Positions 43,496 to 45,275 of a stretch of DNA of 45,465 bases are shown one piece after another. The position numbers were made by a program, and so were the translations under genes. Every line of letters starts with the position of its first letter. Positions within the stretch are counted from its first letter, which is position 1. Origin of the DNA: an uncultured Clostridia bacterium (GTDB lineage: Bacteria > Bacillota > Clostridia > TANB77 > CAG-508); NCBI GenBank assembly GCA_947631785.1, contig CANRMR010000014.1, positions 1-45,465 of the forward strand, given 5' to 3'. A model generated the notes under the pieces. It saw only the letters and a list, made by a program, of their open reading frames with translations. It was not told the DNA's origin and did not search any database.

Positions 43496-45275
43496 ATGAA
43501 ACATGTAAACCTTGGCGCTCTAGAGAGAGAGAGAGAGAGAGAGAGAGAGAGTACACATTTTAAAAGAAAATAAAACTGTAGGGGCAGACGCCTCTATTAA
43601 TTCAAACACAAAAAAATGCAATATAGGTGTAGGGGCAGACGCCTCTGTCTGCCCAAATAATACAAACGGATACAAAACACGTGTAGGGGCAGACGCCTCT
43701 GTCTGCCCAAATCTCACAAAGGCATACCCAAACACCCGTAGGGGCACGGGGCACCGTGCCCAACCAACAAAGACAAACAAAAAAAACGTAGGGGTTGGTC
43801 TTGACCAACCCAAAGGAATAACCCTTGTAGCCCTTGTAATAACCATAATAATCCTAATCATCCTAGCAGGAGTAACCCTAAACCTAGCCCTAGGACAAAA
43901 CGGAATATTTGTAAAAAGCAAAGAGGCAGTAGACAAATACAAAGACTCTGCCCAAAAAGAACAAGAACAATTAGATAATATATATGATAATTTAAGAGGA
44001 CCATTAAAAACAGACGGAAGTTATGATGAGGTAAAAGGAGTAAATACGCCAGTAATAAAAAATCCAAATGCAAATACAAAAATGGAACTTGTAAGATATG
44101 ATGAAGAAAAAAAAGAATGGGTAAAAGATACAAATAATTCAAGCTACAATTATGTAGCAGGTACAGGAACAGACAACACATCAAGCCACTGGGCAAATGC
44201 AAAAGTAACGATAACATATGAAAATGGAGAAAGCGTAGAAAGTTACTTTGTATGGATACCAAGATTTGCATACAAAATAACGCCAAAACAAAGTGGACAA
44301 ACAGCTGGAACAATAGATGTAGTATTCTTAAAAGGGACAACAGACACATATATAGATGAAAATGGCGAAGAAAAAGAAGCAAAAAGAGCAACGGATGATG
44401 ATATAGGTGATGGAGTCTATTTAGAAGACTATATAGTACATCCAGCCTTTACAAAAACACAAAAAGAAGATGGAACATTAACATACGACAATGGAGAATG
44501 GAGCGAAGAACTAGCAGGATTATGGATCGGAAAATACGAAACAAGCCATACAGGATGCACAGAATACGCAACATCAGGCGAAGGAACATTAAATGAAAAC
44601 AAAATAAAAATACAACCAGGAATAACAAGTTGGAGAAACGATACAATAGGAAATTTTTATACAGCAGCAAAAGAATATGAGGCACACTTAAATAGCCATA
44701 TGCTAAAAAATAGTGAATGGGGAGCAGTAGCATACCTAACACATAGTCAATATGGAAGAAATGGACATGAAATAACAAGAAACAATAATAGTAATTATAT
44801 AACAGGAATAGGTGGAGGAGATACAGACACAGAAGAAACTACATCTGAAACAAAAGATAATGTATATAATACTCCAGAAGGAATGACAGCAAGTAGTACA
44901 GGAAATGAATATGGAATATATGACTTATCAGGAGGAGCATCTGAATATGTAGCAGCATACTATAAAAATGGTGGTTCAAGTTATTTAAATAATGGAGACT
45001 CATTTGCAACCCAAAATAAAACAAGTGATGAATATTCAACAGCATATGAAAAAGATAAAAGTGAAGAAGCTAATGCATTCAAAAAAGGAGATGCGACATA
45101 CGAAACTAGTGGTTGGAATTCAGATCATGCTGTATTTGTGTATTCGAACTACCCTTTCTTCAGACGTGGAGGTGTCTATAAATATAGTTCTAACGCTGGT
45201 GTGTTCTACTATTACTACTACCATGGTATAGCTAACAACGAAAACTCTTTCCGTATGTGTCTTGCAGTAGAGTAA
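43496..45275 (+). CDS. Prepilin-like, candidate DGR-target surface protein; start separated from the main frame by the AG tract
   Basis: ATG 43496 with a good ribosome site opens MKHVNLGALERER and, at the present tract length, stops at 43573. The long frame, open from 43524 to 45275, holds the translated hairpin array, a prepilin-like segment (KGITLVALVITIII, Gly at -1), a coiled stretch, and the FGE/C-type-lectin-like region (GLWIGKYETS, SEWGAVAYL, TGNEYGIYDLSGGASEYV) ending in a variable tip (RRGG, AGVFYYYYYHG, SFRMCL). One extra AG unit, or two fewer, joins ATG and long frame. ATG 44082 in the long frame lacks the prepilin segment. The paralogue at 2-1639 shares most of the sequence between the segment and tip. 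Surface display is inferred. Confidence 0.75.
43522..43551 (+). repeat. (AG)15 dinucleotide tract in the 5' coding region
   Basis: Fifteen uninterrupted AG units lie nine codons after the ATG. They encode Glu/Arg alternation. Changes by one unit shift the frame by two bases, so only every third length joins ATG and prepilin frame; the present length is out of frame. Confidence 0.95.
43578..43811 (+). repeat. Array of five GTAGGGG hairpin repeats, in frame with the prepilin segment
   Basis: Units begin at 43578, 43629, 43683, 43738 and 43788 (periods 51, 54, 55, 50). The first three are GGGGCAGACGCC-type and translate as VGADAS; the fourth and fifth match the last two units of the first array (RGTGHRAQ and VGVGLDQP) in order, phase and distance to the prepilin segment. 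No stop codon occurs in the coding frame. Confidence 0.92.
45117..45272 (+). other. Candidate DGR variable region (VR2)
   Basis: This is the C-terminal tip of the second protein. It aligns without gaps to VR1 (1481-1636), with invariant TTC TTC, CGT, GGT GTG TTC TAC TAT and TGT CTT and many replacements at positions compatible with an adenine in a shared template. A template repeat is not in the window. Confidence 0.6.

Follow-up and report, generated by a model that had tools for sequence, protein, structure and literature searches.

An uninterrupted (AG)15 tract that separates a start codon from a prepilin-like gene in an uncultured Clostridia bacterium is, in our assessment, very probably a slipped-strand phase-variation switch. 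This reading, which draws on comparison of sequences, is based on the geometry of the locus, on the lack of any other start before the hydrophobic segment of the gene, on a homologous leader in 11 loci of the genome and in the family, and on ON and OFF lengths in orthologues. The window, by which we mean the whole stretch of DNA analysed (45,465 nucleotides), is contig C14 of a genome of 1.44 Mb in 53 contigs.

An AG tract lies between the start codon and a prepilin-like gene

Among di- to hexanucleotide repeats of at least 6 units, the (AG)15 tract is the sole one in the 45 kb window. Because of the base composition of the window (A 0.44, C 0.11, G 0.16, T 0.29), a chance origin of the tract is not a serious explanation. 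The locus comprises the following features.

43424-43452, + strand: putative sigma-A promoter, TTGAAA (43424-43429), a 17-base spacer and TATAAA (43447-43452)
43483-43489, + strand: Shine-Dalgarno sequence AGAAGGA, read directly; paralogues have it at the equal position
43496-43573, + strand: leader ORF at n=15, MKHVNLGALERERERERESTHFKRK and stop, translated from ATG 43496 and out of phase with the gene
43502-43521, + strand: conserved 5' flank, approximately CNTGAAANCCTTGNGGCTST, directly ahead of the tract; common to the family and some other phyla
43522-43551, + strand: (AG)15, the proposed slippage site; the gene is in frame only at n = 1 mod 3
43552-43573, + strand: 3' flank of the tract; TAA 43561-43563 and TAA 43571-43573 close two of the three frames and the third stays open, a layout seen alike in paralogues
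43524-45275, + strand: prepilin-like gene frame, 583 codons, with no ATG, GTG or TTG ahead of the hydrophobic segment

The leader peptide read from ATG 43496 is MKHVNLGAL(ER)n and ends at the stop codon 43571-43573. The prepilin-like frame follows the TAG at 43521-43523, codes from 43524 to 45272, and stops at 45273-45275. This arrangement bears out the sequence-only reading of the region, which had placed the tract after ATG 43496, had let translation at n=15 run to 43573, and had described the prepilin frame as open right after a TAG (a codon at 43521-43523, not a single position). It had also proposed that one AG gained or two lost would join the frames, and indeed one added unit (n=16) yields a 593-aa leader-gene fusion, with n=13 or 19 being equivalent. 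Its upstream signals fared less evenly: the Shine-Dalgarno sequence is present, but the promoter was read by eye only and is absent from a stricter consensus scan. The -10 region belongs to a TATGATATAAAAT block that the window locus has in common with the AG-led paralogues L051, L054, L057, and L061.

An expressed start downstream of the tract had been named as evidence against a switch. We sought ATG, GTG, and TTG in the prepilin-like frame upstream of the hydrophobic segment and found none; the earliest ATG of this frame, at 44082, is already inside the gene. The locus has the anatomy expected of a slipped-strand switch, with an unbroken repeat whose unit is not a multiple of 3 placed between the start codon and the gene body, and with a gene that can be read at some repeat numbers only and has no alternative start.

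Eleven loci of the same genome share one leader

A search of the genome for AG tracts of at least 8 units, performed without any flanking sequence, returned 11 tracts, all of them in one homologous leader. The 11 loci follow a common plan, in which a start codon is followed after 26 to 29 bases (counted from its first base) by the tract and then by a flank that mostly closes two frames. The unit numbers are 10, 14, 14, 14, 15, 15, 16, 18, 18, 18, and 18. Eight of the 11 loci are direct fusions, in which a prepilin-like gene continues the third frame for 149 to 646 codons and the other two frames close after 3 and 6 codons. A single one of these eight is in frame (n=10, 456 aa), and the remaining seven, including the window (n=15), are out of frame. 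In the last three loci (L052, L055, and L059), every frame is short and a separate gene lies downstream.

Prepilin-like paralogues that have no tract possess ordinary ATG starts and a leader with the same repeat-derived peptide, VGADASVCPN, which suggests that the region between the tract and the hydrophobic segment is normally translated. The palindromic GTAGGGG units lie in a type-specific frame throughout the leaders, OFF ones included (48 in frame 0, 13 in frame 1, and 0 in frame 2). At a further locus (L068, on contig C16 of this genome, G000, near the prepilin-like gene C16:1975-2178), three AG units are followed by TA and CA repeats, and this looks like a decayed tract. Contigs often end 0 to 50 bases past an AG tract or within a REP-containing leader, as at positions 1 to 1639 of the window and at contig ends of relatives; the number of AG loci per genome is therefore likely to be underestimated.

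AG leaders in relatives and their terminator geometry

AG tracts preceded by GCTNT were found in 52 of 390 family genomes, covering 17 of 39 genera, and a reversed-pattern control gave 0 in each of the 390. A scan of public genomes returned at least 111 such stretches, mostly from gut Clostridia.

Sixty-seven loci are leader-only, meaning that the frames end early; most then have a gene with its own ribosome site, often prepilin-like. A strong hairpin with a T-rich tail precedes the gene in 40 of the 67, and in 29 of these 40 the stop of the longest frame lies inside the hairpin or at most 15 nt after it, with the other two stops upstream of the hairpin. Counting unique stop sets, 26 of 37 have this geometry, whereas 10,000 shuffles that paired hairpins and stops at random averaged 14.0 and never exceeded 23; the shuffle keeps shared ancestry, and the p-value is not to be taken literally. 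At their current lengths, the strong-hairpin loci together with the three of this genome comprise 11 with a long leader, 28 with a short one, and 3 with no nameable start. As for those three, in L052 and L059 the long frame extends over hairpins of modest strength (about -6.6 kcal/mol), and L055 has a degenerate hairpin only. In L094, L143, and L110 the stop of the long frame coincides with or adjoins the next start, a layout that suggests possible coupling.

A precedent for such geometry exists in Streptococcus gallolyticus pil1: a shift of frame in its GCAGA repeats makes the leader peptide longer, with the ribosome opening a terminator, a mechanism proven for these repeats (PMC3894217, 2014). 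By analogy, the window tract might act mainly via transcription, its short leader ORF being a pil1-type attenuator peptide and the ribosome masking or exposing a terminator before the gene. The 29 strong-hairpin loci with the expected stop geometry in relatives fit this idea, as do the modest hairpins under the long frame of L052 and L059. At the window, however, no + strand terminator was found between the tract and the gene, there is no second ribosome start, and the gene is reached by read-through only, so that we consider attenuation very improbable for this locus. By its anatomy, the window locus is of the direct-fusion type, with a gene predicted to be reachable only from ATG 43496.

Homologous loci occur in ON and OFF lengths

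We scored 35 direct-fusion loci, eight of which are from this genome, and found 7 ON and 28 OFF; a locus was scored if one frame was open for at least 140 codons, the others were short, and a start with a ribosome site could be named, and the counts hold for such loci only. Seven ON out of 35 is consistent with an ON share of one third (binomial p 0.11) and does not fit a frame that is translated all the time.

Orthologous or nearly identical loci differ in state. L130 and L164 are 98.5% identical over 3,102 bp, and the former has n=18 and is OFF (29-aa product), whereas the latter has n=16 and is ON, with a product of at least 236 aa that is cut by the contig end. Similarly, the orthologues L264 and L279 (93.2% identity over 3,322 bp) have n=13, ON (511 aa), and n=11, OFF (19 aa). 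The members of both pairs come from different species or assemblies and are not reads of one population, and nearly every comparison is drawn from metagenome assemblies. In relatives and paralogues, repeat number thus differs between close copies and takes both ON and OFF values. The sequence-only reading had held that a fixed tract length would argue against switching; lengths are instead variable, homologous loci ranging from 10 to 18 units in this genome and from 6 to 32 elsewhere, in all three frames. The proposed slipped-strand geometry thereby gains support from homologous loci, near-identical ones included, which occur in predicted ON and OFF lengths.

In two pairs of orthologous loci from two relatives (L266/L273 and L269/L271), identity is about 95% upstream and up to +100 or +273 past the tract, after which the gene bodies are different. 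Since the flanks are kept and the bodies differ at orthologous sites, gene bodies appear to have been exchanged, and the AG leader looks like an expression site with an exchanged gene.

Such exchange could also be taken to mean that the window gene is inactive, as a pseudogene or a silent donor, and its tract without a switching role; that seven of the genome's eight direct-fusion loci are out of frame points the same way. Set against this are the 583 stop-free codons, the retained promoter and ribosome site, and the in-frame state of one paralogue and six relatives' loci, and we regard this possibility as extremely improbable. To the idea that the tract is a fixed-length coding sequence, misassembled or missequenced out of frame, we assign an almost negligible probability: two-base repeats are open to miscounting, but ordinary reads span 30 bases, the genes are intact yet out of frame at 28 of 35 homologous loci from many independent assemblies, and closely related loci differ by 2 units.

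Product of the window gene and variable regions

Further features of the gene and of the window are listed below.

43578-43815, + strand: five palindromic GTAGGGGC... repeat units, starting at 43578, 43629, 43683, 43738, and 43788; in-frame peptide VGADASVCPN / RRGTGHRAQ / VGVGLDQP
43818-43874, + strand: hydrophobic prepilin-like N-terminal segment ITLVALVITIIILIILAGV
44658-45017, + strand: weak FGE-sulfatase-like match in the C-terminal half (E 6e-4, 19.9 bits), under the Pfam cut-off of 23.3
45126-45272, + strand: C-terminal stretch (last 49 codons), resembling variable regions of about 10 paralogues
2-1639, + strand: paralogue, 80% identical, truncated at the contig start, short of any position where a tract would show

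The N terminus encoded by the window gene looks like that of a prepilin: it contains KGITLVALVITIIILIILAGV, a hydrophobic N-terminal segment after a basic/Gly site, with no Glu at position 5. A prepilin peptidase A24 is encoded in the genome at C26:10807-11145. The Pfam and NCBIfam pilin models gave no match to the product, and structure prediction of two window paralogues had a pLDDT of 29, too low to use. In the ON state, about 108 leader residues would precede the hydrophobic segment of the product, which is unusual for a prepilin; the paralogues that have no tract have long leaders as well. REP-like palindromes (GTAGGGGC...GCCC) between the start and the hydrophobic segment, read in frame, are also found in the leaders of about 20 prepilin-like paralogues.

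The genome also carries a diversity-generating retroelement (L084, 1264-2832; contig C7, approximately 31.8 to 33.4 kb), with a reverse transcriptase ORF and an adjoining template repeat. Its target, C7:33865-35163, has 17 differences from the template, 15 of them at template adenines. Two further reverse transcriptase remnants with stops (C7:55381 and C9:48747) and a fragment at C12:7-198 were seen, and the variable region of the AG-led gene on C12 is diverged, with 19 of 41 changes at A. A template repeat for the type of variable region present in the window gene was sought and not found, its only link being its likeness to other variable regions.

The 5' flank of the tract is conserved independently of the reading frame

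A flank motif of about 20 bp is kept ahead of about 130 tracts across phyla, independently of the reading frame. Among loci with the conserved 5' flank, the reading frame at the tract entry is the same in 85 and a different one in 27, and the least conserved bases of the flank include the second codon positions of the main frame. Because of this, conservation of the flank at the peptide level seems unlikely.

Since the search pattern included the five flank bases GCTNT, these cannot count as evidence of conservation in relatives. After nine distant-phylum pattern matches had been excluded, we scored the motif outside this anchor; the score was positive in Gastranaerophilales, in several Bacteroidota or Chlorobiota records, and in RUG493, and negative in matches judged unrelated, some of them in distant phyla.

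The least conserved flank positions are -7, -13, and -19, i.e., six apart. This spacing recalls target recognition of the Cas7 type, and we considered a guide-RNA role, which was dropped as a search of the genome gave no Cas5 homologue. A hairpin in the 5' flank was likewise dropped: by eye, AGCC/GGCT pairs in some copies and not in others. An Rfam search of seven leader loci matched no family, and the exact window flank gave no match in a virus collection. The three viral (AG)8 matches were set aside; all lie in one phage coding sequence and are devoid of the flank motif.

Discussion

We propose that transcription and translation of the window locus would start at or before 43496 and that replication slippage would alter the number of AG units in this strain. 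Only n = 1 mod 3 (13, 16, or 19) would take the ribosome from the leader into the prepilin-like frame; at other lengths it would halt no more than about seven codons past the tract. The assembled n=15 would then be an OFF state, presumably with loss of the protein. With 11 homologous AG-leader loci, a cell could draw a varying repertoire of pilin-like surface proteins, where the surface location of the product and a benefit of switching are what we infer.

Repeat-slippage phase variation is documented best in cultured, mostly pathogenic bacteria. In the CT-repeat outer-membrane genes of Helicobacter pylori and the CTCTT opa genes of Neisseria, families of surface proteins have a 5' coding repeat that sets the frame. 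The loci described here differ from these in repeat, protein family, and envelope, and in them the repeat is part of a conserved leader that precedes a repeat-derived pro-region; we claim no sequence relation.

A close parallel is S. gallolyticus pil1/pil3, where a repeat tract also lies in a short leader ORF before a surface-structure gene of a Gram-positive gut bacterium and the frame sets the output. The terminator geometry of pil1 appears to be matched by the leader-only AG loci of relatives. However, the repeat is AG here and GCAGA there, and at the window the leader would run straight into the gene with no terminator involved. Furthermore, S. gallolyticus has two loci in one species, whereas eleven loci occur here in one genome, and loci occur in many species. 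An AG repeat in a coding region is also known from the MmyCI methyltransferase gene of Mycoplasma mycoides subsp. capri, where the length of an (AG)12 tract causes premature termination (PMC3498834), but this is a restriction-modification gene at one locus. In Bifidobacterium breve, a gut commensal, replication slippage is reported to turn pilus expression on or off in sortase-dependent pilus clusters (PMC9187656); the genes concerned here are prepilin-like. Our literature search, whose coverage is incomplete and leaves absence unproven, turned up no description of AG-leader switches for these Clostridia. They would represent a new form of phase variation by repeat slippage, which as a kind of switch is already known.

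More tentatively, the AG tract might form, together with the 20-bp flank before it and the frame-closing 3' flank, a dedicated transferable module, a reading that we hold to be possible rather than probable. Such a module would be widespread in gut Clostridia, with further occurrences in Gastranaerophilales and a few Bacteroidota, would be conserved at the DNA level regardless of frame, and would serve as an exchangeable expression site for surface-gene bodies with two or more outputs, among them frame fusion and transcription attenuation; here it would be combined with retroelement diversification. If this holds true, on/off choice and sequence variation would both be present in this genome.

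A leader-attenuation switch has been proven in one Streptococcus species only, as far as the literature searched goes, and our sequence comparison suggests that such switches may be common in another lineage with a different repeat. Overall, pilin-like surface genes of uncultured gut Clostridia appear to be under the control of a set of slippage switches that counts 11 loci in a 1.44 Mb genome and about 20 in some relatives.
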